A DNA stretch of 30,452 nt from IMG/VR virus record IMGVR_UViG_3300037070_005413, positions 1-30,452 of that record; one strand, given 5' to 3'. The DNA comes from a virus. Below, one piece after another: positions 1,265-29,160 of this stretch. The notes beneath the pieces were generated by a model. That model made no database searches. It worked only from the letters and a program-made list of their open reading frames with translations, and was not told the origin of the DNA. How positions within the stretch are numbered: position 1 is the stretch's first letter; every line of letters begins with the position of its first letter. The position numbers and the translations under genes are program-made.

Positions 1265-1266
1265 GA

Positions 1267-1410
1267 CTACCTGCGTTTGCGTTTCGGCAACTTCCCGCCC
1301 GGATCGGACTTCGAGTACTCCTTTCCGACCTTTTTGGGGATGCCTATGGTTGACTTGCCAGATGCAGCAGCACGCATTGCACGCCGCTGAGCTTCGCTAC
1401 GCGGAGGCAT
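1267..1410 (-). CDS. Small basic phage protein (47 aa), MPxxSxAQRRAM...IPxKVGKE family
   Basis: ATG at 1410 is preceded by a good GGAGAAG ribosome site. The product begins [18 protein letters not shown], continues [14 protein letters not shown] and ends in a Lys/Arg-rich tail (LPKRKRR). Small proteins of this pattern are common in phages and prophages, often near virion genes; their role is unknown. The strongly basic composition suggests nucleic-acid or membrane contact, which is inference. It sits between the capsid terminator and the lysozyme, so it probably heads the lysis-side transcript or is reached by read-through. Confidence 0.8.
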
Positions 1411-1424
1411 ACACTTCTCCTATG

Positions 1425-1451
1425 AAAAGCCGTCCCCGACTTAGGGGACGG
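1425..1451 (-). terminator. Rho-independent terminator after the capsid gene
   Basis: An 8-bp perfect stem (CCGTCCCC at 1430-1437 with GGGGACGG at 1444-1451) with a 6-base loop is followed on the minus strand by CTTTTC. It lies about 20 bases past the capsid stop and would limit the capsid transcript from the lysis genes. Confidence 0.8.
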
Positions 1452-1472
1452 AGTTTCGCCAGCAAAGAAGAG

Positions 1473-2468: not shown

Positions 2469-2470
2469 GG

Positions 2471-3583: not shown

Positions 3584-3890
3584 TAGAATTCCCCTTACTA
3601 AATTTGTCGCGCATTAATTTATCTGCAACGTACTGTTCTAATTGCTTCTGTACGTCACGAACGGCCTTTATACTAGCATGGGCCGTACCGGCTGTCAAGC
3701 TACCTACATCCGCGTTTAATAGTGTTCCCAGCGCCCTAGAATATACATCCTCTAAAGCATTTTTAAATACAGGATTATTGAGGATTACCCTGGCTTCCGC
3801 CGCCCGCTCCTCCACTTCCAGATCGGATAGGCGCTTGTGGTCCAACGAATTGAGATTCAGGCTGTGTATCAATTGCCGTTCTAGGTCCAT
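3576..3890 (-). CDS. Small conserved head-module protein (104 aa) that overlaps the portal gene by 116 bases
   Basis: The product is helical and charged: LDHKRLSDLEVEERAAEARVILNNPVF, then ALEDVYSRALGTLL and a C-terminal HASIKAVRDVQKQLEQYVADKL helix. Similar short proteins with a RxILNNPxF-like block and a final helix occur between portal and scaffold in podovirus-like genomes. The role is unknown; head completion or scaffold partnering is a guess. The first 38 codons are read from the same DNA as the end of the portal gene in another frame. No ATG exists between the portal stop and MRDKFS near the C-terminus, and the ILNNPVF block spans the portal stop, so the overlap appears real. The ribosome site before ATG 3890 is weak. 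Confidence 0.7.
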   Translation of the reverse strand: MDLERQLIHSLNLNSLDHKRLSDLEVEERAAEARVILNNPVFKNALEDVYSRALGTLLNADVGSLTAGTAHASIKAVRDVQKQLEQYVADKLMRDKFSKGNSSG

Positions 3891-7851: not shown

Positions 7852-8293
7852 TTTCTATTACCTCGCCTTCCGTTTCTCTTGTTTCTTGGTACTTTGTTTC
7901 TGGCCCTATAGAAGTACCGTCAGCCCATTGCACGATAATGGTTCCGCCGGCCGAATTCTTCACATTAATTCCCGCCGAATTGCCCGCTCCCCATCCTCTA
8001 TGCTTCCCTATATTCGACAGCACGAATCTGCTCATGGTGTCGCGCCGAGAAGGATCTAATTCGTCCGTCAACGCGTTCAGGACGTTTGATTCTGCTATAT
8101 CAACCATCCTGTCGGCGGCTTCTTGTACTTCTGCCGACAAGTAGGGCGATTTCCTAACGAACGCTCTTAACCGAATTGATGTTATTTTTAATAGCTTCGC
8201 CGCCTCCGTAATATTGCCGGAGGCCATCCAAATAGCAGTTCTACATTCTTCCACGTCCAGTGGAAGTTCGAGCGGCCTTTCCGAATATGGCAT
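7826..8293 (-). CDS. terS: Probable terminase small subunit
   Basis: The 155-residue protein lies upstream of terL with two small genes between them. Its N-terminal third holds a helix-turn-helix-like region: ECRTAIWMASGNITEAAKLLKI followed by IRLRAFVRKSP, the arrangement of small terminase DNA-binding domains. AESNVLNALTD and FVLSNIGKHRGWG form the central oligomerisation-type helices. The C-terminal 50 residues are polar, acidic and low in structure. Family knowledge: TerS recognises the packaging site and feeds DNA to TerL. The ribosome site upstream of ATG 8293 is poor. Confidence 0.75.
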   Translation of the reverse strand: MPYSERPLELPLDVEECRTAIWMASGNITEAAKLLKITSIRLRAFVRKSPYLSAEVQEAADRMVDIAESNVLNALTDELDPSRRDTMSRFVLSNIGKHRGWGAGNSAGINVKNSAGGTIIVQWADGTSIGPETKYQETRETEGEVIENEPATDAA

Positions 8294-8338
8294 GGTCGGT
8301 AAGGCCGCCAGGTCAGAAGGTACGTGGTCGTCGTCCAG

Positions 8339-8803
8339 TTATCTTTCCTTCCGTTGTGTCTCGCCGCCCCGCGACAGTGGCTCCGGGGGTGGTGGAACCG
8401 GCGTAGCGAATCGCACTTCTGGCCGTGACGCGACCGGAGGCCAAAGCTCCGCACCCGTGTTGGTCACGAGGTGGTGGATTGTGTTGTCATAGAGATCGTT
8501 TATGTGCCCACGGCAACATGAGACACCGGGATCAGGTGCTTCGCGCTGCACCGAAATCGGCGTGCCGGTGTCATCCAAAACGATCCATACGTCTTCCCCG
8601 GACTCGATATCCGGGATTGCGTCGGTGAGCCCGTCGAACGGACCCAAATGGAACTGGGAGATGGAAGCGCGGCGCTTCTTCTTAATATCTTCCATCAACT
8701 TCTCGCGCGCGATTTCGTACTTCTCCTTCGTTGCCGCCTCTTTGGGATTTGTTGGGGCGGGGATTGTCTTTGCTTGCGTAGCCATTGTGCCTTGCGTAGC
8801 CAT
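8339..8803 (-). CDS. Unknown protein (154 aa), paralogous to the next upstream gene
   Basis: I do not recognise the family. ATG 8803 follows a strong AAGGAGG. The first 12 residues are an internal duplication (MATQGT then MATQAK) caused by an 18-bp tandem repeat that spans the start codon. A charged helix follows (KEKYEIAREKLMEDIKKKRRA). The core from about residue 70 (VWIVLDDTGTPISVQREAPDPGV...) matches the neighbouring 83-residue protein: both have LxDTxGxPxSxQ, a later LVTxxGAE and PxxRF. The C-terminus is Pro-rich. It may be an early leftward or virion-associated protein; no function is assigned. Confidence 0.75.
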   Translation of the reverse strand: MATQGTMATQAKTIPAPTNPKEAATKEKYEIAREKLMEDIKKKRRASISQFHLGPFDGLTDAIPDIESGEDVWIVLDDTGTPISVQREAPDPGVSCCRGHINDLYDNTIHHLVTNTGAELWPPVASRPEVRFATPVPPPPEPLSRGGETQRKER

Positions 8804-8808
8804 TGTGC
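8773..8808. repeat. 18-bp perfect tandem duplication over a start codon
   Basis: Copies at 8773-8790 and 8791-8808 are identical (CTTGCGTAGCCATTGTGC on the plus strand). They duplicate the GCACAATG start region, so two in-frame ATGs (8803 and 8785) exist, but only the outer one has the AAGGAGG site. Confidence 0.9.
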
Positions 8809-8820
8809 CTCCTTGTGTTA

Positions 8821-9072
8821 TTACACGTGCATAACGAAGCGAAAATCAGGGGTTGGTTGTATGGGCGAAGTGACCTCCGCGCCAGCCAATGTGACCAGTT
8901 TGGTGTCCGGGGGCGTAAGGAGCGGGTTATAATAGACGCGAGCAGCCAAAACGCCCAAATCGGGAACAGCCTTCTGAATCGAAAGTGGGGCACCATCTGT
9001 GTCTATCAAGAGATAGCCAATATCACCTGGGGAGAGGTCTGAGGTGTCTAAAAGCGAATCGAATGCGCCCAT
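8821..9072 (-). CDS. Unknown protein (83 aa), first gene of the leftward structural operon
   Basis: I chose ATG 9072 because GGAGGA lies at the right distance and the start falls about 26 bases downstream of the expected transcription start; longer frames would begin inside the promoter. The product MGAFDSLLDTSDLSPGDIGYLL is followed by IDTDGAPLSIQKAVPDLGV and LVTLAGAEV. It is a clear relative of the downstream 154-residue protein. Function unknown. Confidence 0.8.
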   Translation of the reverse strand: MGAFDSLLDTSDLSPGDIGYLLIDTDGAPLSIQKAVPDLGVLAARVYYNPLLTPPDTKLVTLAGAEVTSPIQPTPDFRFVMHV

Positions 9073-9104
9073 AGCGAATATCCTCCCAAATAGATGGATG
9101 CGGA

Positions 9105-9133
9105 AGTGTAGCACGCGCGGGCACTAGTGTCAA
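9105..9133 (-). promoter_or_regulatory. Leftward sigma-70-type promoter for the structural module
   Basis: On the minus strand TTGACA (9128-9133), a 17-bp spacer ending GCGTGC and TACACT (9105-9110) form a near-consensus promoter. It is the only one seen ahead of the head genes, down to the terminator at 1425. Confidence 0.85.
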
Positions 9134-9231
9134 GGTTATAGGTATGTTCAGGGGGTGCTGGAAGTGATGTTCGAGGGTTCGATATATACCGTACGCGGGC
9201 TGAAGTGCGTTGCGCGCCGAAACGGGTCCCG

Positions 9232-9260
9232 CCTCCGGCTCGATTTCATCGAGCCGGAGG
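9232..9260. repeat. Perfect 13-bp inverted repeat with 3-base loop
   Basis: CCTCCGGCTCGAT, TTC, ATCGAGCCGGAGG. The hairpin would be very stable, but no T-run follows on either strand, so it is not a standard terminator. It lies between the divergent promoters and could insulate them or bind a regulator. Confidence 0.85.
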
Positions 9261-9278
9261 TCGGGGGGTTCGCGAAGC

Positions 9279-9354
9279 TAGGAACGAAGTCCTAGGAAGA
9301 AGGACCTAGGACAGAAGTCCTAAGTTGTAGGACAGAAGTCCGAGTGTAGGACCG
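9279..9354. repeat. Cluster of 14-bp dyad repeats (TAGGACAGAAGTCC type)
   Basis: Abutting units lie at 9279-9292, 9293-9306 and 9307-9320. A second perfect TAGGACAGAAGTCC lies at 9328-9341, and a partial TAGGACC at 9347-9353. The perfect copies are 21 bp apart, and each has internal dyad symmetry (GGAC-AGAA-GTCC). The cluster ends about 22 bp upstream of the first rightward promoter. Operator or origin iterons are both possible. Confidence 0.75.
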
Positions 9355-9375
9355 TGGCTGCGACAGCGCGCCGCA

Positions 9376-9404
9376 TTGCGCGCGCGCTCGCGGCGTGGTA
9401 GACT
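9376..9404 (+). promoter_or_regulatory. Rightward promoter for the first rightward gene
   Basis: TTGCGC (9376-9381), 17-bp spacer ending GGCGTGG and TAGACT (9399-9404). The -35 is weak, but spacer and -10 match the phage promoter family. A leader hairpin (GGGAGGG 9414-9420 with CCCTCCC 9442-9448) follows. Confidence 0.65.
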
Positions 9405-9465
9405 GCGAGCTGTGGGAGGGGCCGAGGCCGCGAGGCGGCCGCCCTCCCCGAACGGAGAGACGACA

Positions 9466-9957
9466 ATGGCACGCAAGACACACGCAGAGGCCCCGGTGCT
9501 CGAAGCCACCCTCGACGAGGCCTTTGGCCCCGCCGTCCACGCCGACCCCGACGACGCCTTCGGCCCCTTGGTCCACCCGGACGTGGCAGCCGACAACGCC
9601 AAGCGGAACTCGGTGGTCGGGACGAAGTACAAGAAGCGCTACGCGGCGCGAGCCGCAGCCCAAGGCCTCGGCAAGGCCGCGCAACGCTCCTCCTGGGACT
9701 GGTTGGCCCAGACACTGGCCGGCGAAGTCCTCGACGAGAAGGACCGGCTGGACGTCCACAGGCTCCTCGCCCTCCTCGACGCGAACGGCGTGGACCACAG
9801 CAAGTGGACGAACCGGAGCAAGGGCTGGGAAGGCAGGCTCCGAATGACAGGACGCCTCGCCCTCCAGCGCGTAGTGGCGGAAGCCGGGACGCTCCAGACG
9901 GCAGACGGCGAGACGCTCGAAGCCCCCGCCGAGTGGGTGGCGAAGTTCGCCCGCTAG
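9466..9957 (+). CDS. RMTGR-family paralog 1 (163 aa), unknown function
   Basis: ATG 9466 has a GGAGAGACGACA site. The N-terminal 40 residues are acidic and contain an internal repeat (DEAFGPAVH, DDAFGPLVH). From NSVVGTKYKKRY onward the sequence is the domain shared with three other proteins of this window (12703-13293, 16507-17373, 20648-21061). It continues SSWDWLAQTL, LLALLDANGVDHSKWTNR and KGWEGRLRMTGR, and ends EWVAKFAR. The conserved Gly-Arg-x-Arg-Met-Thr block and basic N-terminal segment suggest nucleic-acid contact, which is inference. It heads a short operon with the 58-residue gene downstream. Confidence 0.85.
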   Translation: MARKTHAEAPVLEATLDEAFGPAVHADPDDAFGPLVHPDVAADNAKRNSVVGTKYKKRYAARAAAQGLGKAAQRSSWDWLAQTLAGEVLDEKDRLDVHRLLALLDANGVDHSKWTNRSKGWEGRLRMTGRLALQRVVAEAGTLQTADGETLEAPAEWVAKFAR

Positions 9958-12702: not shown

Positions 12703-13293
12703 TTACTCTTTGGTCTTGAAGCGCGCGACGAATTCAGGCGGAGCCGTAACGTCCTGTCCGTCTCCCATCTTCAAGATGCCAGCGTTCGCCACCACCTTCT
12801 GCAGCGCGACACGCCCGGTCATTCTGAACCGGCCTTCCCAACCCTTGTTGCGGTTGGTCCAGCGCGAATGATCGACACCATTGGCGTCGAGCAGGGCGCG
12901 GAAGTCGTCGATCCGGATCTTCTCCTTCTCACCCAAGCAGGCCGCAGCAATCTGCTGCGAGAGCCAGTCCCAATTCGACCGCTTGGCCGCCTTGCCCTTG
13001 ATCCCCGCCGCCCTCGCATTCGCCAGGTACTTGTCCTTGAACTTCGCGGCGACAACCGAATTGTTCTGCTTGTTGTCCTCTTCCACCTCTGCCTCGGCGG
13101 CCAATTCGGCGGCGTCCACTTCGTTCAGTGAAGGTTCACCCTCCTCTGTGTTCGCCTCCACTTCCGCAGGCGGAGCGCTCTCCGTGCGCACGTCTTCGGC
13201 CACAGCTCCTTCGCCATGTGCTTCCAAGCGGTCAGCTTCGATCTGTGCGAGTTCTTCATCGTCTGCCTTGTATTTACGCTTTCGCTTTGCCAT
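12703..13293 (-). CDS. RMTGR-family paralog 2 (196 aa), unknown function
   Basis: ATG 13293 is chosen because GGAGAGCGAA precedes it exactly as in other genes here. The product starts with a basic stretch (MAKRKRKYKADDEE), then about 80 acidic Glu/Ala-rich residues. From NNSVVAAKFKDKY onward it carries the shared domain: SNWDWLSQQI, FRALLDANGVDHSRWTNR and KGWEGRFRMTGR. It ends PEFVARFKTKE. It is the closest relative of the protein at 9466; the main difference is the long acidic N-terminus. It is transcribed alone, against its neighbours, from its own promoter. A nucleic-acid-binding or DNA-mimic role is conceivable but unproven. Confidence 0.87.
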   Translation of the reverse strand: MAKRKRKYKADDEELAQIEADRLEAHGEGAVAEDVRTESAPPAEVEANTEEGEPSLNEVDAAELAAEAEVEEDNKQNNSVVAAKFKDKYLANARAAGIKGKAAKRSNWDWLSQQIAAACLGEKEKIRIDDFRALLDANGVDHSRWTNRNKGWEGRFRMTGRVALQKVVANAGILKMGDGQDVTAPPEFVARFKTKE

Positions 13294-13331
13294 TTCGCTC
13301 TCCATCGCGGTCGTTGATCGACCGGACCCCA

Positions 13332-13360
13332 ACTCTACCACGCCGTGGGTTGGCTGTCAA
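13332..13360 (-). promoter_or_regulatory. Leftward promoter for RMTGR paralog 2
   Basis: On the minus strand TTGACA (13355-13360), 17-bp spacer ending GGCGTGG and TAGAGT (13332-13337). A leader stem-loop CGGTCG/CGACCG (13308-13324) precedes the ribosome site. Confidence 0.85.
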
Positions 13361-16506: not shown

Positions 16507-17373
16507 ATGAATATTCATCACACGAAGATCAAGCAGGCAATGGCCATTGGCTGCCATCTAAGCGCGGAATCTAGCCATCGTTTCCGTATATTCTGGCCTC
16601 AGCAATCGGTTGAGCTATTCGCTCACTCTGTGGACGAAGCGCTAGACGAAATGCGCGCGACCCAAAGCATTCTACACCACAATCCAGACTACAAGATGGT
16701 GACCAACCATATAAACTTGGATGTAATTCTAACGAATCGAATAACTGGCAAGATGATGAGGGAATCCCCTGCTTCACCCAGCGAAATATGGGCAATCATT
16801 GAGGCGGAAGAAGACCACTGGGTAATGCCATTAGGAGCGCCCCCTCCGGAGGAAGAAGCCAGCGATAGAATAAGCGGGGTACACATAAGTGGTACCGTTG
16901 CTCACAAGGAGGGTGTTCCGGCCGGGGATTGTCCCTATCCTGAAGAGAGCGACGATTTTGCTCGTTGGAACGACGAGTGGGACGAAGCCGCTGAGAAGGC
17001 ACTAAACCCGCCACCCAAAGGATCGGTGGTGACGAATCGATATCGGGCTACATATTCGGAGTTTGGGCACCCCACCCATTGTGGGGACGAACTGGCCATT
17101 CTACTCAACAACATATGCCTCAACAAAGCGGGCACGAACATAGACCTGTTCGAAGCGATCTGTGTCGCTAACGGCGTAAGTTTAACGAAGTACGATCGTA
17201 TTGCCAAGGGATGGCAAGGCCGCCTTCGTATGACTGGACGAAATCTGCTCGCCAAGAAGATAAGGGAGAACGGCGGCAAGTTACGGATGCCGGAGAATAT
17301 GAGCCCCGATGAATACAGAATGAGTAGAGAATGGCTAGAATTGGCAGAGAAGAAATACAAGCCCAAAACGTAG
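16507..17373 (+). CDS. RMTGR-family paralog 3 fused to a second N-terminal domain (288 aa)
   Basis: ATG 16507 follows GGAGGAGGCAC. Residues 1-90 form a domain with IKQAMAIGCHLSAESSHRFRI, LFAHSVDEALDEMRA and HHNPDYKM, a pattern found in other phage proteins of unknown role. An acidic, Pro-rich linker of about 90 residues follows. The C-terminal part has the shared domain: GSVVTNRYRATY, HCGDELAILLNNICL, LFEAICVANGVSLTKY and KGWQGRLRMTGRNLL. The fusion places the RMTGR domain at the C-terminus. A nucleic-acid-related role is possible but not shown. Confidence 0.85.
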   Translation: MNIHHTKIKQAMAIGCHLSAESSHRFRIFWPQQSVELFAHSVDEALDEMRATQSILHHNPDYKMVTNHINLDVILTNRITGKMMRESPASPSEIWAIIEAEEDHWVMPLGAPPPEEEASDRISGVHISGTVAHKEGVPAGDCPYPEESDDFARWNDEWDEAAEKALNPPPKGSVVTNRYRATYSEFGHPTHCGDELAILLNNICLNKAGTNIDLFEAICVANGVSLTKYDRIAKGWQGRLRMTGRNLLAKKIRENGGKLRMPENMSPDEYRMSREWLELAEKKYKPKT

Positions 17374-18028: not shown

Positions 18029-20566
18029 ATGGAACAAATCAAGGGTGGATTCGCATTTAGCGATGCTGATGAGAAGACAATAAACCAGCAGCGAAGTATC
18101 ACCGCCCAGATAAACAACAATTTCATACAAGTCGGTGCCGTATTTCTACAAATGTCCGGCAAAAATCCGTTCACTACGGATTGGCACAAAAAGAAATTCA
18201 AGGACACTAATCTCCAAGAATGGATCGACGACCCCGATATGAGGGTCTTAAATCTAGGCTTCAACCTACAATTTGGCTGGTTGGACGTAGATATCGACGC
18301 CGAAGACCCCCGCTACAACAAGTGTATACTAAGCGCATTCAACTTCCTGGATATCGACACTAGGTTCGCCTTTGGGCGGTTATCCAAGAATGTCCCATCC
18401 CACATTATGGTTCAGCTGAGCGAATCTGACCTAGCAAACTACGACATGATGAAGGAGTTTGAACCCAATGAGTTCAAGTTGGATAGTAAAAGATATAAGT
18501 GCGAACTACGTTCCATGGGACCGGTTCCGCCAGAGGCACAAAATACTATCAAAGAAGCGCGCCAAACCGTTATGCCCGGAAGTATCTATATTCATAAGAC
18601 CAAATCAGGCGAATTTGATATTTCGGTATGGTACACGAATACCGGCAAGGCTGCTATCTCGGTTGGTGAAGTCGCCGCTACCACCCCAAGAAAGACGGCC
18701 TTCTCATCGCTGATTACGGGCATCGCATTCGGCACCTTCCTATATATTCTACAGCCCCATTGGGTTGAAGGTACCCGGCAGAACTTAGCCATCAAGGTAG
18801 CTGGTTGGCTTGCGCGCTTAGTGCGCGAATCCAGAGGCATCAACGAAAACGACAACGTATCGCGCGGCACTTATTGCCCCGTTGGTACGCCCGAAATGGC
18901 CGAGTCCATGTTGGACTTCCTATGTGGCGAATTAGGCGACCACGAAGCCTTCATGAGAAAGCGAGTATTCCGTGACGCTATTAAAAAGCTGGAGAATAAT
19001 CCGGATGCTAAAATTCCCGGCTGGCCCGCGCTGGAAGGTGATATCGGTACAGAGAGTATACTTGCCTTACGAACAGTGTTCATGCCGGGTGTGGATGTTT
19101 CGCCTCTCACGAAGATGGCGGATCGTTATATTTACGATGAAACCGATGACAAGTACATTGACCGAGAACGATTCTACACCATATCGGGATTCGTTCACGA
19201 TGGGGCTGAACTTGATCGCAGACACCGAAATGACCTTATGGAAGTAGCGGGCAAGATGAAGCCTGTGTTCAAGCTGTTTGAGTCATCGCCGCTGCGAAGA
19301 CGAGTAGGTGGAAGAGACCTCTACCCCGATTTTAAACCAGGCTCTATATTCAGACTATCCCGCGCAGGCGGTATCATTCCGGACGACCAAGATAACGAAT
19401 CCGGTATGATGACTGTGTTCAACACTTGGCGCGGCTGGCCTATTCTACCAAGCCAAAATCCGGACCCTAATCTATTGGCTAAGTGTAATTCTATGATGGA
19501 CCAGTTATTTGAATACCTAAGCCAAGGCAATAAACAGCAAGCGGAATGGCTAAAACAATGGATCGCTTGGACAGTTCAGTTCCCTGGCCAGAAGCAACAA
19601 GTTGCTCCGGTACTGATTGGTGGCCAAGGGATTGGCAAATCTTTCTTTGGGAATGTGTTCCTGGAGCAGTTATTTCAGAACCAATGGGGTTCCGCGTCAC
19701 CGAAAATCCTAGAAGGTGCATTTTCTGTGGAGCCATTTATCAACAAAATGTTCGTATTCATAGACGAAGCGAAATTCTATAGTGAAGCTAGCACCGACGA
19801 AATCAAGAAATTGATCCGCGCCGATCGCCTTGGCGGGGCCGAGAAGTTCCAATCCGCACGAACCTACCGCATATTTGCCCGCGTGGTATTCGCCTCCAAT
19901 CGATTTGACATGAACATCGGCCAACAGAACACACAAGACCGCGCTTTGTTCTACATGAAGACATACGACAAGGACTTCATGAAGCAGACCGAGCAGGGGT
20001 TTAAGAATTGGACGGTTACTCTCAAGCCATTCTTCGACGAGTTTAATGCGTTCATTCACCGCATGGATGTTAAGGAGCACTTCATGTACATCTTCAATAC
20101 GATGGGAGTAAATCGTCATGACCTTGAAAATACAGCACTTTCCTCTGGTTCTGACAGTCACATCATTGAATCCAACATGTCTTACGCTAGGCGAGTTGCT
20201 AAGGCAATTGTCGAGGAAGGACGCATCTGGGAAGATTTGGACATATCAGCTCCATTCACCACAGCCGAATTTAACAAGCGGGTTAGTGATACTTGCGAAT
20301 CAGCGCGAATTAGATTTGTCCAACCCCGACATGTATTTGAGGAATTTACAAGCGCCGGGCTGATAGAGGCTTGGGTGCACGGATCGTCCAAATACTGGCG
20401 CTTCAAATCCAAAATAGGTACCCTCACCGAAGAATTCGGCAATGCTATAGGGGTGAAGTTGGAATCCCGGTTTGAGTTCAGCGATGATGACTTCGGGCCA
20501 AATACATCGGAATTTAAAGGGGCGAAACCGTGGAGAGGGAACTCAGGAAGATTTGGCAACCTATAA
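18029..20566 (+). CDS. Primase-polymerase fused to SF3 helicase (845 aa)
   Basis: The N-terminal domain looks like an archaeo-eukaryotic primase/PrimPol: WLDVDID (Asp86, Asp88, Asp90) as the metal-binding motif, then GRLSKNVPSHIMVQL (His125) as the second motif. A long middle part follows. The C-terminal half is a D5/SF3-type replicative helicase: GGQGIGKS Walker A (residues 531-538), MFVFIDEAKF Walker B (Asp579, Glu580) and FARVVFASNRFD as the SF3 motif C with sensor Asn. Such fusions start and unwind phage replication. It has its own promoter and structured leader. ATG 18029 lies after GGGGACTTC. The third primase catalytic motif was not pinned down by eye. Confidence 0.88.
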   Translation: MEQIKGGFAFSDADEKTINQQRSITAQINNNFIQVGAVFLQMSGKNPFTTDWHKKKFKDTNLQEWIDDPDMRVLNLGFNLQFGWLDVDIDAEDPRYNKCILSAFNFLDIDTRFAFGRLSKNVPSHIMVQLSESDLANYDMMKEFEPNEFKLDSKRYKCELRSMGPVPPEAQNTIKEARQTVMPGSIYIHKTKSGEFDISVWYTNTGKAAISVGEVAATTPRKTAFSSLITGIAFGTFLYILQPHWVEGTRQNLAIKVAGWLARLVRESRGINENDNVSRGTYCPVGTPEMAESMLDFLCGELGDHEAFMRKRVFRDAIKKLENNPDAKIPGWPALEGDIGTESILALRTVFMPGVDVSPLTKMADRYIYDETDDKYIDRERFYTISGFVHDGAELDRRHRNDLMEVAGKMKPVFKLFESSPLRRRVGGRDLYPDFKPGSIFRLSRAGGIIPDDQDNESGMMTVFNTWRGWPILPSQNPDPNLLAKCNSMMDQLFEYLSQGNKQQAEWLKQWIAWTVQFPGQKQQVAPVLIGGQGIGKSFFGNVFLEQLFQNQWGSASPKILEGAFSVEPFINKMFVFIDEAKFYSEASTDEIKKLIRADRLGGAEKFQSARTYRIFARVVFASNRFDMNIGQQNTQDRALFYMKTYDKDFMKQTEQGFKNWTVTLKPFFDEFNAFIHRMDVKEHFMYIFNTMGVNRHDLENTALSSGSDSHIIESNMSYARRVAKAIVEEGRIWEDLDISAPFTTAEFNKRVSDTCESARIRFVQPRHVFEEFTSAGLIEAWVHGSSKYWRFKSKIGTLTEEFGNAIGVKLESRFEFSDDDFGPNTSEFKGAKPWRGNSGRFGNL

Positions 20567-20647: not shown

Positions 20648-21061
20648 ATGAGTGAAGAGACCAAAGCGCCGGAAGCCGAGACGGAAGTGAAGACCACGAA
20701 GTCGATTGTTCCGTCCAAGTACTCCGGCCGATACAAGAACGGCGGCGAAGACCCGCTCGCGATGTTCATTAAGGCGCAATGCGCCGACGACAAGGGGTTC
20801 AGCTTCGACAAGTTCTTCGAACTGTGCTCCAAGAACGGAATCGCGCAGGAGAAGGTCGACCACTACAAGGGCCAGGTCGCTGAGAAGCGGCACGGTGCCG
20901 AAGGTCGCGCTCGTATGACCCTTCGGAACATGCTGGCGACGTTTGCCCGCAAGAACGGCAAGCTGGTGGGTCTGGACGACGCGGAAGTGGAGGTCGCTCT
21001 CCCGAAGGTCGCGTTGACCGGCGCAGCGAAAGCGGCGGCTGAGAAGCAAGCCGCAGCGTAA
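20648..21061 (+). CDS. RMTGR-family paralog 4 (137 aa), unknown function
   Basis: ATG 20648 has a CAGGAGACTGTA site. It is the most divergent member: KSIVPSKYSGRYKNGG, DKFFELCSKNGIAQEK, then EKRHGAEGRARMTLRNMLA, where the block reads RMTLR instead of RMTGR. The tail is Ala/Lys-rich (TGAAKAAAEKQAAA). Placed directly after the PrimPol gene, it links the family to replication by context. Abundant expression is suggested by its own near-consensus promoter. Confidence 0.83.
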   Translation: MSEETKAPEAETEVKTTKSIVPSKYSGRYKNGGEDPLAMFIKAQCADDKGFSFDKFFELCSKNGIAQEKVDHYKGQVAEKRHGAEGRARMTLRNMLATFARKNGKLVGLDDAEVEVALPKVALTGAAKAAAEKQAAA

Positions 21062-21385: not shown

Positions 21386-21877
21386 ATGAAGATGGAAACC
21401 CTACTAGAACTCAGTAATGTGTGTGGTTCCCTATCCCGACTTGCAGGGGATATAAGGGACCAGACCAACCAAGTGGTTGCCACCAACGATCACATCGAAG
21501 TGATCAAGCACTACGACAAGCTGCGGCAGGTAACTGCCTTGATCAAGGAATCCCGCGAAGTCCTCAGCCAGATCGAGGAAAAGCTGTCGCGAGAACATGT
21601 GCCCGATGTAATGAGGGCGCACAATATCCGCAACGTCACCATCGAAGGAGTCGGCCGCGTTACCCTCGGGACGCGCTGGTCTGCTTCCATGCCCGACAAG
21701 CAATCCGGGTTCGAATGGCTGCGCAGCAATGGTCACGGCGGAGTAATCCAGGAAACTGTAAACGCGCAGACCCTCGGCGCGCTGGCCAAAGAACTGAACA
21801 ACGACGGAACCGACCTCCCGGCTCCGATCTTCACAACGAACATCATGACGTACACAAGCATCACGAAGGTGAAGTAA
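21386..21877 (+). CDS. Conserved phage protein (163 aa), recombination/replication neighbourhood
   Basis: The N-terminal 65 residues are helical and likely coiled (LLELSNVCGSLSRLAGDIRD, VTALIKESREVLSQIEEKL). The C-terminal part (IRNVTIEGVGRVTLGTRW, FEWLRSNGHGGVIQETVNAQTL) belongs to a pattern seen in other phage proteins placed next to the gene that follows here. No function is known to me. The stop shares its last A with the next ATG (TAATG), so the two products are probably made in a fixed ratio. ATG 21392 is an alternative start. Confidence 0.8.
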   Translation: MKMETLLELSNVCGSLSRLAGDIRDQTNQVVATNDHIEVIKHYDKLRQVTALIKESREVLSQIEEKLSREHVPDVMRAHNIRNVTIEGVGRVTLGTRWSASMPDKQSGFEWLRSNGHGGVIQETVNAQTLGALAKELNNDGTDLPAPIFTTNIMTYTSITKVK

Positions 21878-22713
21878 TGAGCAACGATGTAGCGAAGACT
21901 AACGCAGGTATTCCTGCGCATTTGGCTCAGTACCAGAAGTCCAAGATCGGCAACGTCGATTCCACCGATCGCATCATTCCGAGAATCAAACTGATGCAGG
22001 CAATCTCGCCTGAATTGGTGGATTTCACGGAGGCCAAAGCTGGGCAGTTCTGGCACACTATCGCGCAGCAGAACCTGGGGCCGACCATCAGGGCTGTTCC
22101 CATCATCATCCGCAAGTCGTTTGTTCTGTGGGCACCCCGGAATGACGACCGAGGTATTCTGGCCCGCGCGATGGATGGCATTCATTGGGACCCGGCCAAC
22201 GTCGAGTTCACTGTGAAGCCCAAAGGCTCACCCAATCCAGTAACTTACCACACCAAAGATACGGTGGCGGAATCCGGGCTGGACAAATTCGGCACTTCCA
22301 TTCCGGGCGATGCCAATTCGCCGCCTGCGGCGAGCCTAACTTACAACATGATGTGGCATTTGGTTGACTTCCCAGAACTCAGCCCTTCCATCATCATCAA
22401 CACGCGTTCCAGCGTCAAGCCGATGCAACAGTTGCTGTCCAGGATCGATTCCAAACCAGTCCCACACTTCTGCCAGCTTTACACCATCGGCTCCGTCCAG
22501 CAGAAAGGCGCTGAGGGTCCCTACTTCAACTTTACTTACACCGGGGCTGGATACGCCGACGAGAAGACGGCGGAAATCTGCAGCGAAATGTACGACCAGT
22601 TCGGCAAGGAGGGCTGGCGTGCTAACGACGAGAGCGATGAGGAACCCGATAAGCCAGCGTTCGACAACACTACCGCCGGCAAACGGATGGACGGGGATAA
22701 TATCCCGTTCTAA
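21877..22713 (+). CDS. Conserved phage protein (278 aa) with SSB-like acidic tail, candidate single-strand DNA-binding protein
   Basis: The body is conserved in phages (RIIPRIKLMQAISPELVDF, AGQFWHTIAQQNLGPTIRAVPIII, FVLWAPRNDDRGILARAMDG, then SPPAASLTYNMMW). I know these as uncharacterised. The last about 45 residues are acidic and disordered (ESDEEPDKPAF) and end MDGDNIPF, very like the bacterial SSB tip D-D-D-I-P-F that recruits replication proteins. The place between the primase-helicase and polymerase fits an SSB. The fold itself is not recognisable by eye. A rho-independent terminator follows. Confidence 0.75.
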   Translation: MSNDVAKTNAGIPAHLAQYQKSKIGNVDSTDRIIPRIKLMQAISPELVDFTEAKAGQFWHTIAQQNLGPTIRAVPIIIRKSFVLWAPRNDDRGILARAMDGIHWDPANVEFTVKPKGSPNPVTYHTKDTVAESGLDKFGTSIPGDANSPPAASLTYNMMWHLVDFPELSPSIIINTRSSVKPMQQLLSRIDSKPVPHFCQLYTIGSVQQKGAEGPYFNFTYTGAGYADEKTAEICSEMYDQFGKEGWRANDESDEEPDKPAFDNTTAGKRMDGDNIPF

Positions 22714-22727
22714 GCGCGCCCCTACTT

Positions 22728-22758
22728 GGAGTGGGCGCAAATGCCCACTCCCATTTTT
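22728..22758 (+). terminator. Rho-independent terminator ahead of the polymerase
   Basis: GGAGTGGGC (22728-22736) pairs with GCCCACTCC (22743-22751), then CATTTTT. It lies between the SSB-like gene and the polymerase, whose ribosome site starts just after the T-run, so partial read-through may set polymerase levels. Confidence 0.85.
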
Positions 22759-22769
22759 ATGGAGTGTCG

Positions 22770-24560
22770 ATGAAACAGCTAATCGATCCGGAGCTAGCCT
22801 TGCGGCTAATCCGAGAGGCCAAAATTCTAGCCTTCGATACGGAGACTACTGGAATAGATATCCACAGTAAGGTGTGCGGTTGGGTGATAACTAATGAAGA
22901 TCACTCAATTTATGTGCCCGTTAGGCACGAAGCAGGGGGGAACATACCAAATGTTGAGGAATTCGAATCTGAGTTGGCAGCGGCTTTCAGAACTAGGGGG
23001 GAACGTGGTCTACGTACTTGTGGCCATAACTTGGGTTTTGATTTGCGCATTAGTCTTAGGCATGGCGTTGTACTTACTTCTCCATTAGAAGACACGATGA
23101 TCAACGAGGCGATCATCAGCGACATAACCCCGAGCTACAGCTTAGAAGAGTGTGCCCTTCGCCGCAAGGTAACATCCAAGAAGGGGTCAGAGGTATACGC
23201 GCTATTAGCGCAGCGATTCGGTGGTATCCCAGACCGCAAGCAGATGAAGTTCTTTTGGCGGTTAGAGGGCGACCACCCAATCGTAGTGGATTATGCCACT
23301 GGCGACGGCATAACTACCCTCGAGCTATGGAGAGCGCAGCAGCCTATCCTGGACAATGATGAGTTGCGAATACCGTGGCGATTAGAGTGCGATCTGTTGC
23401 CTTACGTGGCGAGGATACACCATCGAGGATTGAAGATCGACTCCGAATATTCCGGCCGGGTGGTCGGGGAAATAGGCGAGGCCATCGCTGAGGCGAGCAA
23501 GGTATTTGTGCCGGGGTTCAACGTCCGCTCACCTAAAGCAGTCGAGCAACTGTACCGAATTAATGGATACACCGATGACAAATTCTCGCGAACAAGCACC
23601 GGGGCCATATCCTTCACTGAAAAGTGGCTCGGGACTAACGATATCGGTAACACAATCCTATCAGTTCGGAGATTGGAGAAAGCGCGCGATAGCTTCATCA
23701 CCCCTCTTATCGACACGCACAACGTTGAGGGTCGCGTCCATCCAATTCTTAATCAATCTAAATCAGACGATTACGGAGTAGCCGGTGTTAGATTCTCCTG
23801 CTCTGAACCTAACCTGCAAGCTTTCCCTAAACGGAACATTGAAGTCGGCAGAGTTGTTAGAAAGCTCGTTATTCCCGATGATGGCTTCGTTATTGAGGAG
23901 GCTGACGCCAAACAACAAGAGCCTAGATTATTTACTCACTATTCAAACGACCCCGCGTTGGTTGATGGATACCGAAATGGTACAATGGATATCCACGACA
24001 GAGCATCTCAATTGCTTAATCTGGACAGAGATACAGCTAAGCGAATGGCGATGGGCATGCTAACCATGATGAGCCCGCCTACGCTTGCGGGACACATGGG
24101 TTGGGACTTGGAGCGGGCACGCGCGGCACATCGAACATTCCTATCCGACGCCTTCCCAATGATCAAGACGTTCCAGGATCAAGCCGTGCTGGTGTTTAGG
24201 AGGAGAGGGTATGTTAGAACTATCCTCGGGCGACGTGCTTATTGTGACGACCCAAAATTCTCCTATCGTGCCGTGTCTAGAATCATCCAGAACGTCGGTG
24301 GAGAGCATCTTAAGATGTGCCTATTACGCTCCTGCCAGTACGAAGACATCTTCCCTGGACAGTTCCAGGTCCTACTCACGATTCACGATAGTCTTTTATG
24401 GCAGCGGGACCCAAGTCACGATCCTAAAACAGTTATCGGGCTGATCGAAGATGTGGCCCACGAGCTAAAATTGAAGGTTCCCATCCCATTTGGCCTTGGC
24501 TCCGGTAAGGATTGGGCTAGGGCTTCCTACGGCGACAAGCTAGACAAATACGAGGAATAA
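22770..24560 (+). CDS. dpoZ: Family A DNA polymerase with 3'-5' exonuclease, candidate DpoZ
   Basis: ATG 22770 is chosen for its GGAG site at 22761; the longer frame starts inside the terminator. Length is 596 residues. The exonuclease domain is intact: FDTET (Asp23, Glu25), CGHNLGFD (Asn87, Asp91) and YATGD (Tyr175, Asp179). Polymerase motif A is EADAKQQEPR (Asp379, Glu384). Motif B is DTAKRMAMGM, with Lys424 but Met428 where Pol I has Phe762 and Thr432 where it has Tyr766. Motif C is IHDS, with Ser541 for the usual Glu. Lineages linked to 2-aminoadenine genomes carry such exonuclease-bearing polymerases; the cassette downstream supports the name. The altered O-helix may tune nucleotide choice (inference). 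Confidence 0.85.
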   Translation: MKQLIDPELALRLIREAKILAFDTETTGIDIHSKVCGWVITNEDHSIYVPVRHEAGGNIPNVEEFESELAAAFRTRGERGLRTCGHNLGFDLRISLRHGVVLTSPLEDTMINEAIISDITPSYSLEECALRRKVTSKKGSEVYALLAQRFGGIPDRKQMKFFWRLEGDHPIVVDYATGDGITTLELWRAQQPILDNDELRIPWRLECDLLPYVARIHHRGLKIDSEYSGRVVGEIGEAIAEASKVFVPGFNVRSPKAVEQLYRINGYTDDKFSRTSTGAISFTEKWLGTNDIGNTILSVRRLEKARDSFITPLIDTHNVEGRVHPILNQSKSDDYGVAGVRFSCSEPNLQAFPKRNIEVGRVVRKLVIPDDGFVIEEADAKQQEPRLFTHYSNDPALVDGYRNGTMDIHDRASQLLNLDRDTAKRMAMGMLTMMSPPTLAGHMGWDLERARAAHRTFLSDAFPMIKTFQDQAVLVFRRRGYVRTILGRRAYCDDPKFSYRAVSRIIQNVGGEHLKMCLLRSCQYEDIFPGQFQVLLTIHDSLLWQRDPSHDPKTVIGLIEDVAHELKLKVPIPFGLGSGKDWARASYGDKLDKYEE

Positions 24561-25149: not shown

Positions 25150-25531
25150 GTCCGACGTTAAACGTAAAATGGTAAGATCGGTGCGCGAATCCAACGGTTA
25201 CGCGCGCCGCATCGAGGACTCTTACGGGGTGGGCATATTGGATATGATCTTCATCCCATTTGGATTGCCGGTCATGTTCGCGGAGGTCAAGATTATCCGG
25301 GGGTCCACATTCGGACCATCGCTAAGGCAACAGGTAGAACTAGAGAGGATCAAATACGTAAGTCACAATACGGGCCATGCCATTCCTATGATGATAGGTT
25401 ATAAAGATGGTGTGTATTACTTCCACGAACCGGCGATGACGATCAAACCAGAGGAATGCTTCTCGGTTACCACCAGCGACATGTCGTTCCACGACCAGCT
25501 AGTTCAATACTACAACTCAAGGAGAAAGTGA
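25142..25531 (+). CDS. PD-(D/E)XK nuclease, VRR-NUC-like (129 aa)
   Basis: I chose ATG 25142 (MNESDVKRKM), overlapping the previous stop. The core ARRIEDSYGVGILDMIFIP followed by PVMFAEVKII fits the VRR-NUC layout: Glu27, Asp36 and the E-V-K pair (Glu48, Lys50), then RQQVELERIKYVSHNTGHA, the Q-x-x-x-L helix. C-terminal strands follow (PMMIGYKDGVYYF). Family knowledge: such nucleases cut branched or flapped DNA in recombination and repair. A structure-specific nuclease fits a replication operon. The exact residues are read by eye. Confidence 0.75.
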   Translation: MNESDVKRKMVRSVRESNGYARRIEDSYGVGILDMIFIPFGLPVMFAEVKIIRGSTFGPSLRQQVELERIKYVSHNTGHAIPMMIGYKDGVYYFHEPAMTIKPEECFSVTTSDMSFHDQLVQYYNSRRK

Positions 25532-25878
25532 TGAAGAAGAAATCAGAGCCAGCCAAAGAAATCGAGCAAGTAAAGCCCAAGCATAGCGAAGCTATCCTCA
25601 GCGAAGCCCTACAGGCGGTTAAGAGCAAGGGCGTCGAGCACGGCGATGCCGAAGCACTATTCACCATGGTGGCGGAATTGTGGTCGGTGTATATTCGCCA
25701 CGCCTGCATTGTTCGCGGTTGGACCGAAGTGACCGCCGACGAAACAGCCCAAATGATGGTCCTGCTTAAGATCGCACGTTCGGTGCACGGCAACGGCAAG
25801 GATAATTATGTCGATGCCGCTGGTTACACCGCCCTCGCAGCGATGCTCCAAGGCAAGGTGCCAAATGACAACAGATAG
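25531..25878 (+). CDS. DUF6378-like protein (115 aa)
   Basis: ATG 25531 overlaps the nuclease stop (TGATG) with AAGGAGAAAG upstream. A Lys/Glu-rich N-terminus precedes ILSEALQAVKSKGVEHGDAE, then LFTMVAELWSVYIRH and a C-terminal MMVLLKIARSVHGNGKDNYVD helix ending DAAGYTALA. The GVEHGD and KDNYVDxAGY motifs are typical of a small all-helical phage family (DUF6378). Some of its helical features recall MazG-like pyrophosphatases, but no ExxE/ExxD set is present. It overlaps purZ by 14 bases, so it is coupled to the Z cassette. Confidence 0.78.
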   Translation: MKKKSEPAKEIEQVKPKHSEAILSEALQAVKSKGVEHGDAEALFTMVAELWSVYIRHACIVRGWTEVTADETAQMMVLLKIARSVHGNGKDNYVDAAGYTALAAMLQGKVPNDNR

Positions 25879-26944
25879 TGTTATAATACAGGATACCGGA
25901 GTCCATTGTGTGGTGGACGGCCAATTCGGGTCTACTGGCAAGGGAGCCTTAGCCGCTTGGGTGGCTGATTACGCCCTAAGACACGACCTGGCCCATCACT
26001 TCTCCGGCGCTATTTATAGCGGTGGTCCCAACAGCGGGCACACTTTCTACGCCGATAGTGAACAAGTGGTGGTAAAGCAACTGCCTTCATTTGCCGCCTA
26101 TCTGTATATGAAGGGCCATATCCTCCCGGCATATCTGTCGGCTGGCGCGGTTATTGATCCGGTTATCCTCAAGGAAGAGGCCAACCGATTCCCAAATCTG
26201 CCTATATTCGTGCACCCTAACGCCGCGATAGTCACAACAGATGATAAGCTAGCGGAACACAGCGGTTCTATAGCCGCAGTCGCAGGTACCAGAAGCGGCA
26301 CTGGATCAGCATTATCAAATAAGATATTGCGGATTACCGGAGCTATCGCCGGCAATTCGCTGTGCAACATTGCACCCAATGTGATAATACAGAATCACCG
26401 ACTGAAGCCGGAGCAACACTCTTATTTTATGGAAGTAGCCCAGGGGTTTAGTTTGGGGATCAACTCCCCGTTCTATCCCAAAGTGACCAGCCGCGAATGC
26501 ACCGTCATGCAAGGATTGGCGGATGCCCGCATTCCTCCTAAAATGCTGAGCGAAGTATACATGGCAATCCGTACATTCCCCATCCGGGTGGGCAATGTGG
26601 ATGGTCATTCCAGTGGTAATTGGTACCCCGACCAACAAGAGGTAAGTTGGAAGGACCTAAATGTGGAGCCCGAGCTTACCACGGTAACGAAGCGTGTTAG
26701 GCGCGTCGCAACATTCTCCATGCAACAATTCTACGAAGCTTGCTACGCTAATGACCCAAGCTTTGTGTTTGTAAGTCACATGGATTATCTAAGTGACGCC
26801 GACCAGAAATCGCTGGTGGACAGCTTGAGGCAGGCTAGGGAAGATATGAAGAAGAACTTTCTGTTTCTGTTCGGATACGGGCCAAGAGTAACTGATGTTA
26901 GCTCTAATCTGATGGCCAAACAGGGTGAACTATCGTTCTTGTAA
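25865..26944 (+). CDS. purZ: PurZ, 2-aminoadenylosuccinate synthetase-like (phage PurA homolog)
   Basis: ATG 25865 (MTTDSVIIQ) follows AAGGCAAGGTGCCAA; 359 residues. PurZ joins dGMP and aspartate using ATP or dATP to give the precursor of 2-aminoadenine deoxynucleotide. The P-loop region reads VDGQFGSTGKG (Ser23) where PurA has GDEGKG with the catalytic Asp; this Asp-to-Ser change marks PurZ. GGPNSGHTF matches the PurA GG-N-A-GHT loop, GTRSGTGSA the GT-GRGIGPA loop, and RTFPIRVGN plus TKRVRRVATFS the IMP/Asp-binding region. It is shorter than PurA (about 430). Next to mazZ and datZ. Substrate is inferred from family, not tested. Confidence 0.95.
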   Translation: MTTDSVIIQDTGVHCVVDGQFGSTGKGALAAWVADYALRHDLAHHFSGAIYSGGPNSGHTFYADSEQVVVKQLPSFAAYLYMKGHILPAYLSAGAVIDPVILKEEANRFPNLPIFVHPNAAIVTTDDKLAEHSGSIAAVAGTRSGTGSALSNKILRITGAIAGNSLCNIAPNVIIQNHRLKPEQHSYFMEVAQGFSLGINSPFYPKVTSRECTVMQGLADARIPPKMLSEVYMAIRTFPIRVGNVDGHSSGNWYPDQQEVSWKDLNVEPELTTVTKRVRRVATFSMQQFYEACYANDPSFVFVSHMDYLSDADQKSLVDSLRQAREDMKKNFLFLFGYGPRVTDVSSNLMAKQGELSFL

Positions 26945-26956
26945 TGGGAGGAAGCA

Positions 26957-27259
26957 ATGCCGATCAGCGTCTTTATACAAGTTCCTGACTCTATAGCGCA
27001 ATATAGAGAGCACTTACACGAATTCTTCATGGGGATGATACTTAAGTTGGATAAGAACTCCCACAAGGAGACTCCAACCAAAGAGACTATTCCCAAAATA
27101 ATGGACCTGCTCCGAATGGAAATAGCAGAATTCGAGGAGCAGATGGATAAGGACAAGTTTGATGAAAACTCGCTGATCGAATTGATGGATCAGGCGAACT
27201 TTTCATTCCTAGCTTATGTCGCATTACGTATGCAAGGAGTAGAACATGGACCAAAATGA
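26957..27259 (+). CDS. mazZ: MazZ-like MazG-family pyrophosphohydrolase (100 aa)
   Basis: ATG 26957 follows GGGAGGAAGCA. A MazG-like helical core is visible: MEIAEFEEQMDKD gives ExxE (Glu55, Glu58), and ELMDQANFSFLAYVAL gives ExxD (Glu75, Asp78). These bind Mg2+ and cleave NTPs to NMP plus pyrophosphate. In Z-genome phages MazZ converts dGTP (and GTP) into dGMP or GMP to supply PurZ. The position between purZ and datZ makes that assignment likely; alone it could be any MazG-like dNTPase. It overlaps datZ by 14 bases. Confidence 0.85.
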   Translation: MPISVFIQVPDSIAQYREHLHEFFMGMILKLDKNSHKETPTKETIPKIMDLLRMEIAEFEEQMDKDKFDENSLIELMDQANFSFLAYVALRMQGVEHGPK

Positions 27260-27824
27260 ATCGCTATTACACGAGTTGGACGACCGGCTTAGCGTAGTCA
27301 AGCGTTGGGGTATAGTAAGAACTACCCAGACGCAATCCGTGGCGGAGCATTGTTTCAACGTGCAGCGAATATGTATGAAGCTGGCTCCATATTTCGGCTT
27401 AGTAGACTACGAAGAAATGTTTGAACTGTCCCAAGCGGCGCTTCATCATGACGATGACGAGGCCGTTATTGGTGATATTCCGTCCCCCGCAAAAGCTTAT
27501 ATCAACGCCAACGAAAAGGTACTTGACGTCAGCGCGACGGCGTGGTATACTGATGCTAGCGATCAGGTCAAAATGATAGTGAAGCTGGCAGACATGCTGG
27601 AGGCTTACCATTTCTTGGCTATGGAAGCCAACCTGGGCAACCATTACACTCGGCTCCATCGGTTGACCCTAAGAAATGCACTATTACACTACATCGAAAC
27701 CCACAACATTACTATTAGAACTCTATGCATTCGATGGATGAATCAAGTGGACGGCGAACCAAGTAGGGTACATCATGCAACTGCTGGAAGTTCAACGAAA
27801 AGCACTACAGTCCTCTTGGGGTAA
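27246..27824 (+). CDS. datZ: DatZ-like HD-domain dATP phosphohydrolase (192 aa)
   Basis: ATG 27246 has AAGGAGTAGAAC upstream. HD-domain residues are clear: VAEHCFNV (His35), LHHDDDEAVIGDIPSPAK (His68, Asp69, Glu72) and IVKLADMLEAYHFL (Asp116). The GDIPSP and LAD blocks are shared with YfbR-like 5'-nucleotidases and DatZ. In Z-genome phages DatZ strips dATP to deoxyadenosine, so adenine is not incorporated. The C-terminal tail past about 178 is unusual because it is also read by the helicase gene (50-base overlap). A promoter of the local type lies inside the gene at 27523-27551. Confidence 0.9.
   Translation: MDQNESLLHELDDRLSVVKRWGIVRTTQTQSVAEHCFNVQRICMKLAPYFGLVDYEEMFELSQAALHHDDDEAVIGDIPSPAKAYINANEKVLDVSATAWYTDASDQVKMIVKLADMLEAYHFLAMEANLGNHYTRLHRLTLRNALLHYIETHNITIRTLCIRWMNQVDGEPSRVHHATAGSSTKSTTVLLG
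27523..27551 (+). promoter_or_regulatory. Internal promoter within datZ
   Basis: TTGACG (27523-27528), 17-bp spacer ending GGCGTGG and TATACT (27546-27551) match the phage promoter family although the site is inside coding sequence. It would add transcription of the helicase gene, whose start is 224 bases downstream. Confidence 0.7.
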
Positions 27825-29160
27825 ACCTGGGTTTGCCTTCTACATGGAGATGGGTCTAGGGAAGACCCTTACCGCACTCACCGAATTTCTGGACTTAGTT
27901 GAACAGGGCAAAGCTACCCGGATGGTGGTTATATGTCCAAACAGCTTCAAGACTGGTTGGCTAGATGAAATCGGAAAGCATGGGTTAAAAGTCCACCCAC
28001 ACATTTTCAACTCCGGTTCCGATTATGAAAATGGCCAGTTCTTGAAGTTCAGATACAACAAGCCGCCCGTATTGATCATCAATTACGAAGCGATCCGGAA
28101 GGATCACGTAATGCAGTATATAATATCATTCACCAATAATCGTGATTGTATGTTGGTGGTGGACGAATCCATCCAAATAAAGACGTACAATAGCTTGCAG
28201 ACTAAGGCCGTATTAGCTATGGCCGGTCTATTCAAGTATCGCCGCCTATTATCTGGCAAGCCCGTTACCCAAGGTCCCCACGATCTTTGGGCGCAGATGA
28301 AGACAATAGGCGCTGTGAGTACCAAATACTTCCCATTCAAGACCACGTTCTGCCGGATGGGTGGGTTCCGAGGCAAGAAAGTTGTGGGCGCGCAGAACGA
28401 GGAGTTATTAGCCTCTACCATAGAGAAGTTTATATTTAGGGCGTCCAAGAAAGACTGGACTGATTTGCCCGATAAGATGTACACTTCGCGTCAATACCAG
28501 CTAACACCAAAATTAGAATCCATGTATAGAAGTATGGAGGATGAGTTTGTTCTTTGGCTTAACGAATCTGAAATCGTCGCGGTGGAAGCTTTCATAACGA
28601 AATATATAAAGCTGGCCCAGATACAATCTGGGTTTATAATCAAGGAAGATGGCACCATCCAAGAATTGGTACCCCCCGAGGAGAACCCACGGTTCCTATT
28701 GGTACAAGAATTGGTGGAGGAAGCGCCGGGTAAAGTTATAGTTCCATATATTCATCGATACACGCTCAGCCTGTTACAGCGATCCCTGGCTGATTTCAAC
28801 CCGACATTTATAAGCGGCGGAATGACGCCGGAAGAAATACAGGCGAACAAGGACAAGTTCAACAACGACGAAGACTGCCAAATAATTCTAGTCCAATCCC
28901 GCGCCGGGAAGTACGGACACACTCTTCTCGGAGGCCCGAGCGAAGAAGATAAGTGCAGTACGATGGTATTCGCTGAGAATTCCTACTCTCTAGACGATAG
29001 AAGCCAAATAGAAGACCGAATGCACCGTCATGGACAAACAAAAAGTTGTCTGTATATTGACGTGTGGGGAACACAGCTTGACCATAGGGTTACGATGGCT
29101 TTGCAAGCTAAGGAAAACATCGCGCAAGCGGTGTTCCAGTTTTTCAAGAAGGATCAATAG
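27775..29160 (+). CDS. SNF2-type superfamily 2 helicase (461 aa)
   Basis: ATG 27775 lies inside the end of datZ. Motifs: EMGLGKT Walker A (Lys30, Thr31), VVICPNSFKTGWLDEI (Ia), LVVDESIQIKT (Asp130, Glu131, Ser132, a DES box where DEGH or DEAH is usual) and LLSGKPVTQGPHDLWAQM (III). ILVQSRAGKYGHTL and QIEDRMHRHGQTKSCLYID are motifs V and VI, typical of SNF2 and phage DEAD-like proteins. It probably moves on double-stranded DNA in recombination or replication restart. Its stop overlaps the stop of the converging leftward gene by 7 bases. Confidence 0.92.
   Translation: MQLLEVQRKALQSSWGKPGFAFYMEMGLGKTLTALTEFLDLVEQGKATRMVVICPNSFKTGWLDEIGKHGLKVHPHIFNSGSDYENGQFLKFRYNKPPVLIINYEAIRKDHVMQYIISFTNNRDCMLVVDESIQIKTYNSLQTKAVLAMAGLFKYRRLLSGKPVTQGPHDLWAQMKTIGAVSTKYFPFKTTFCRMGGFRGKKVVGAQNEELLASTIEKFIFRASKKDWTDLPDKMYTSRQYQLTPKLESMYRSMEDEFVLWLNESEIVAVEAFITKYIKLAQIQSGFIIKEDGTIQELVPPEENPRFLLVQELVEEAPGKVIVPYIHRYTLSLLQRSLADFNPTFISGGMTPEEIQANKDKFNNDEDCQIILVQSRAGKYGHTLLGGPSEEDKCSTMVFAENSYSLDDRSQIEDRMHRHGQTKSCLYIDVWGTQLDHRVTMALQAKENIAQAVFQFFKKDQ

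Follow-up and report, generated by a model that had tools for sequence, protein, structure and literature searches.

Published work counts two groups of DpoZ, the family A DNA polymerases associated with phages whose DNA carries 2-aminoadenine (Z) in place of adenine, and these match PurZ0 and PurZ (PMC12884076). In functional terms, a DpoZ favors dZTP over dATP by 1-2 orders of magnitude. Phe at the site of Pol I Tyr766 has been described as the only mutation common to both DpoZ clades, and structural work on phiVC8 DpoZ identified no single residue or insertion to explain the choice of Z (PMC8599892). In the model proposed for that enzyme, backtracking to the exonuclease is more frequent for the weak A:T pairs than for Z:T pairs; its Z-to-A ratio is unchanged in an exonuclease-dead mutant (PMC8599892), which implies that the polymerase mode itself must contribute to the discrimination. 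In phage S-2L, the polymerase behind the Z-DNA is a PrimPol that is unspecific (PMC8599892). A further relevant phage is the isolate Ochrobactrum phage vB_OspP_OH (phage OH), one of whose proteins has been named MazZ-2 and discussed among Z-cluster phages (PMC8342488); a term search of the paper describing phage OH found no analysis of the phage DNA for modified bases.

The polymerase analyzed here is encoded on a 30,452-nucleotide IMG/VR virus sequence from a phage of soil, the whole of which we refer to as the window. Its gene occupies 22770-24560 on the plus strand, with a stop-free frame of 596 codons up to 24557 and a GTG at 22731 as another possible start, and the product matches PF00476 (5e-40) and PF01612 (9e-6). 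The same polymerase occurs at 100% identity on three other contigs, and a search for relatives in bacterial genomes found none. The preliminary description of this gene had reported intact exonuclease motifs and a motif A that retains Asp379 and Glu384, and we located all of them: exo I is FDTET (22833-22847, plus strand), with catalytic D23 and E25 invariant in the alignment, exo II is GHNLGFD (D91), exo III is YATGD (Y175 and D179), and the D379-x4-E384 core of motif A, read from translation and alignment, lies at 23904-23921 on the plus strand. All the residues by which we recognized a family A polymerase with a 3'-5' exonuclease are present (D379, D540, R420, K424, D23, E25, D91, and D179).

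Motif B reads DRDTAKRMAMGMLTM from residue 419, and the O-helix, DRDTAKRMAMGMLTMM, lies at 24024-24071 on the plus strand, as placed by alignment to Klenow and 7pbk, by conservation, and by the modelled helix. The HMMER alignment with Klenow has no gaps in this motif and pairs K424 with K758, M428 with F762, T432 with Y766, and M433 with G767, which bears out the earlier reading of Met at the Phe762 site and Thr at the Tyr766 site; Arg754 (R420) and Lys758 (K424) are kept. Motif C, 538-IHDS, was also read correctly from translation and alignment as HDS (H539, D540, and S541; 24384-24392, plus strand), with S541 standing where HDE has Glu. Two additional changes had not been listed, namely G767 to Met, which is shared by 58 of 71 relatives, and Ser (S503) at the Asn845 site. 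Across the 71 distinct polymerases that are more than 50% identical, site 766 is Thr in 69 and Ser in 2, site 762 is Met in 61 and Leu in 10, and K758, G763, and L765 are invariant, so the odd residues are neither chance nor a sequencing slip. In these relatives purZ is always present where the contig extends far enough.

An AlphaFold model of the polymerase (mean pLDDT of 94.8) places the O-helix at residues 420-431. Its top Foldseek match is phiVC8 DpoZ (7pbk, E of 1.6e-33), whereas the best VIA-align Z value (37.0) belongs to an ordinary Klenow, with 7pbk absent among the best 50 rows; the fold therefore indicates family A and nothing further.

The polymerase gene sits 1.3 kb upstream of purZ-mazZ-datZ, making it very probable, from gene content, that the window belongs to a Z-DNA phage in which Z replaces adenine. 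It is followed on the same strand by three short genes and by genes for a DUF6378 protein, PurZ, a MazZ-2-type protein, DatZ, and an SNF2 helicase, while the terminase, portal, and capsid genes lie on the opposite strand. The small DUF6378 protein (25528-25878, plus strand; domain match) is also retained in a purZ-less relative (L123), indicating that it is part of the module and not of the Z-cluster; its gene overlaps the start of purZ. The predicted PurZ, a succino-2-amino-deoxyadenylate synthase (25856-26944, plus strand), has the GSTGKG loop of phiVC8 PurZ, is 54% identical to the phage OH protein, and matches phrog_1211 (6e-50), with a score on NF038379 of 196 bits, under the cut-off of 300. 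The MazZ-2-type protein (26957-27259, plus strand) had no match among family models and is 30% identical to the phage OH protein at the same place. DatZ, a predicted dATP triphosphohydrolase of the HD fold (27246-27824, plus strand), matches PF12917 and phrog_7076 (1e-24) and is 37% identical to phiVC8 DatZ, and the SNF2-type helicase (27775-29160, plus strand; domain, PHROG, and gene order) closes the replication module. The Z-cluster adjoins the polymerase in an identical order across the window clade, phage OH included. Elsewhere, the window carries four paralogous genes for small proteins of a single family, at 9463-9957 (plus), 12703-13341 (minus), 16507-17373 (plus), and 20648-21061 (plus), with a KGW-GR-RMTGR core, pairwise identities of 59%, 33%, and 30%, and no PHROG match.

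Upstream of the polymerase are a Pam3 gp34-like protein, the first gene of the conserved block preceding the polymerase (21871-22713, plus strand; domain match and gene order), and a DUF5906, VapE-like primase/helicase (18029-20566, plus strand; domain and PHROG matches) whose counterpart is annotated as a primase-polymerase in phage OH. The presence of this gene raises the alternative that the primase-polymerase copies the genome, as proposed for S-2L, and that the family A enzyme serves in repair or as an accessory. We consider this very improbable, as a proofreading polymerase stands within the conserved replication block in every relative examined, and phiVC8-type phages carry the same gene pair with a proven DpoZ.

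The closest resemblance among characterized enzymes is to phiVC8-like DpoZ (7PBK), which is likewise a family A polymerase with an exonuclease encoded beside purZ-mazZ-datZ and is 26-28% identical over the whole length. Both enzymes have replaced Phe762 (Leu in phiVC8 and Met in the window) and lost Tyr766, both carry HDS, and both have changed the Asn845 site (Gly in phiVC8 and Ser in the window). They differ at 766 itself, where the window polymerase has Thr and phiVC8 DpoZ has Phe (F459), and in two of the finger insertions: between R754 and K758 of helix O (insertion 2) the window has 5 residues against 12 in phiVC8 DpoZ and 12-14 in its clade, and between O1 and P (insertion 3) it has 24 against about 42 and 39-49, respectively. 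Insertion 1 is present in the window polymerase and also in purZ-less relatives, and so is no mark of DpoZ. Wayne-like DpoZ are family A polymerases of Z-phages that share a helix O without insertion and an HDS motif C, but have Phe762 and Phe766, accompany PurZ0 with DutZ/DmtZ instead of PurZ-MazZ-DatZ, and are distant in the tree. The suggestion that described DpoZ might share the Met/Thr/Ser set was thus not borne out: the phiVC8 type has Leu762 and Phe766 with Ser or Glu in motif C, and the Wayne type has Phe, Phe, and Ser.

The best NCBIfam match of the window polymerase is DpoZ_1 (NF038380), at 238.9 bits against a cut-off of 500; phage OH scores 253 bits, L115 286, L124 328, and L232 368, compared with 909 for phiVC8 and 939 for SH-Ab. 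DpoZ_2 (NF038381, cut-off of 350 bits) gave no match at E 0.001, where Moki scores 1,177 bits. With scores under the cut-offs, no insertions 2 and 3, no Phe766, and a position outside the phiVC8 clade, the window polymerase belongs to neither described DpoZ family. Genome context suggests that it likely works like a DpoZ nonetheless, and the view of Phe766 as the one mutation found in every DpoZ fails for the window polymerase, which has T432, and for its 71 close relatives, which have Thr or Ser. The phage OH polymerase (QIG66084.1) is 61% identical and shares the gene order, Met762, HDS, and the Z-cluster; it differs in having Ser766 where the window has Thr, and it is annotated only as DNA polymerase I. 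What is new is that a purZ of the PurZ kind goes together with a polymerase lacking both Phe766 and the finger insertions of the PurZ group, although phage OH may already have been grouped in the 2023 reclassification of family A.

In a polymerase tree built without the O-helix and motif C columns, the window clade (99/97), the phiVC8 clade (100/100), and the Wayne-like clade (100/100) were each well supported, and the window clade holds a single isolate, phage OH, in the collections searched. We used as the cellular Pol I control the polymerase of L066 (CAKLQH020000014.1), which is filed as Acinetobacter phage MD-2021a and is a bacterial chromosome (polA, rho, pheST, and rplT). AU tests (p of 0.168 and 0.177) do not decide how the window clade and the phiVC8 clade branch relative to each other and to purZ-less polymerases of the Pelagibacter type, so a third independent origin is unsupported as a firm claim. 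The window polymerase could therefore be an ordinary deep branch of phiVC8-like DpoZ with one origin, Thr being simply a variant of Phe, a reading that is compatible with the one we prefer and that we regard as rather unlikely in itself. The genes of the Z-cluster are the same, NF038380 is the best match, and placing the two clades as sisters passes the AU test (p of 0.168). The clades are nevertheless well separated, insertions 2 and 3 are missing, the score is less than half of the cut-off, and the first branch of the window clade, L232, retains Tyr and HDE. The purZ tree also separates phiVC8-type from window-type genes, the same split as in the polymerase tree, which suits joint descent within each clade. 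Grouping the purZ-bearing members of the window clade as one clade was rejected (p of 0.0007), which means more than one gain or loss of the Z-cluster, and a single loss of Tyr within the window clade is compatible with the data (p of 0.087).

We moderately favor the reading that the window polymerase replicates the genome of a Z-DNA phage and represents a third Z-associated family A clade, beside the phiVC8-like and Wayne-like ones. To relate its residues to purZ, 274 distinct polymerases from seven scans covering viral contigs and named phages were aligned, and the motif residues and the presence of purZ were recorded for each, with key purZ-negatives verified on whole contigs. Some of the search patterns included the motif itself, and the purZ, exonuclease, and palm patterns, which did not, led to the same outcome. 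Counting one row per cluster, Tyr766 was absent in 48 of 49 purZ lineages and present in 36 of 41 purZ-less lineages. Before clustering, 154 of 155 purZ polymerases lacked Tyr766, and the purZ-less ones comprised 104 with Tyr and 8 without it, the latter checked on whole contigs. Counted by independent pairs, Tyr loss goes with purZ in about three of five and against it in none, a number too small for significance (p of 0.25), so the rows of the large unclustered table must not be taken for independent events. The loss of Tyr766 follows purZ, not strictly, with exceptions on both sides. Among purZ lineages the replacing residue is Thr or Ser in the window clade and Phe in both known DpoZ, and Thr766 was seen solely alongside purZ or on fragments that do not extend far enough to judge; as non-Tyr residues are also found in purZ-less phages, Thr766 was rejected as a strict diagnostic of Z.

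The other two positions behave differently. Leu is the commonest state of 762 both with purZ (35/49) and without it (27/41), and motif C has Ser or Ala in 10 of 41 purZ-less lineages, T5 included, and Glu in 9 of 49 purZ lineages, so changes at 762 and in motif C do not indicate Z, and the Met/Thr/Ser triplet as a single Z signature was rejected. The preliminary description had offered either selection for Z over A or a distant lineage as the source of these residues. Both a distant lineage and an association with Z, through linkage to purZ, found support, the three residues as one set did not, and of the set only the loss of Tyr766 proved informative. Motif C reads HDA and the Phe762 site Gln in four purZ phages (L227, L229, L230, and L231).

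Another explanation is that the polymerase copies Z-DNA unselectively and that dATP is cleared by DatZ, in the manner of S-2L, the O-helix changes being drift in a distant lineage. We regard this as a serious possibility, though not the probable one. The window does encode DatZ, the 762 and motif C changes also arise without purZ, and the S-2L precedent implies that DatZ alone could exclude A, which counts against the reading we favor. Three 40% identical polymerases from 41-45 kb contigs (L203-205; polymerase at about 8000-9790) have an equally odd O-helix, KTLGLSIFNGM, with Ser at 763 and Asn at 766, and HDS or HDA; their gene order (gp34-like, polymerase, nuclease, helicase) matches the window, and the cassette is missing, with no purZ on the whole contigs and neither mazZ nor datZ found at the locus. 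On the L203 contig (the same as L123), an MT-A70 methyltransferase gene lies directly 3' of the helicase. L232, a 5.4-kb fragment (1-5408) whose polymerase branches basally in the window clade and keeps Tyr766 and HDE, carries purZ and datZ downstream of that gene. Drift, however, should not repeatedly replace Tyr766 in purZ lineages while the purZ-less L221, L224, and L228, which lie within the window clade, keep it, nor does it readily account for a Thr or Ser fixed in 71 of 71 close relatives. A second group of exceptions, with Met766, falls in the phiVC8 clade (L363, L364, L368, L370, and L371; polymerase at about 8000-9790), and no purZ was found on these whole 23-42 kb contigs. With 772 bits against the DpoZ_1 cut-off of 500, L363 is called a DpoZ by that model even though its phage shows no Z pathway.

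Returning to a Z-associated replicative polymerase, PurZ, MazZ, and DatZ would produce dZTP and eliminate dATP, and the window polymerase would copy the genome with dZTP and proofread through its own exonuclease. The preference for dZTP and its means are the part of this explanation that we infer. In the open form of Taq, the equivalent Tyr671 is stacked against the terminal base pair, from which it moves away on closing (PMC7155079), and in Klenow the Y766S mutation makes the active site more open and lowers fidelity (PMC3121766). The structure of the Bst mutant Y714S has also been solved with a G:T mismatch (3HPO). These mutants place a small hydroxyl side chain where the window has T432, but they are less faithful laboratory mutants of ATGC polymerases, while the window state is fixed in a phage clade. 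Extending the phiVC8 backtracking model to residue 766 by analogy, we suggest that removal of Tyr766 would weaken the hold on the 3' end, so that retention would hinge on the strength of the new pair, and a two-bond A:T would slip back to the exonuclease more often than a three-bond Z:T. Phe and Thr at 766 could then be two routes to the same end, which would explain why the residue varies while the loss recurs. This mechanism leaves L232 unexplained, as it combines Tyr766 with purZ and may rely on DatZ alone. Together with L232, the few independent events of Tyr loss, the purZ-less Asn and Met groups, and the VIA-align ranking count against our explanation.

A bolder scenario, which we think unlikely, is a third origin of Z-selective polymerases, in which a family A ancestor without purZ changed Tyr766 to Thr instead of Phe. 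Removal of Tyr would then be the convergent step to Z-DNA replication, and the relatives with Asn or Met and no purZ would be former Z-phages that reverted to adenine.

Curated models miss the window branch when DpoZ are named. By combining purZ with a polymerase that has neither insertions 2 and 3 nor Phe766, the window clade removes most of the candidate causes of Z selection, and among the motif residues compared, the loss of Tyr766 is what it still has in common with both known DpoZ. Close relatives in the clade that share the gene order and lack the Z-cluster, with Tyr (L221, L224, and L228) or Asn (L203-205) at 766, provide a natural set of enzymes for finding that cause.
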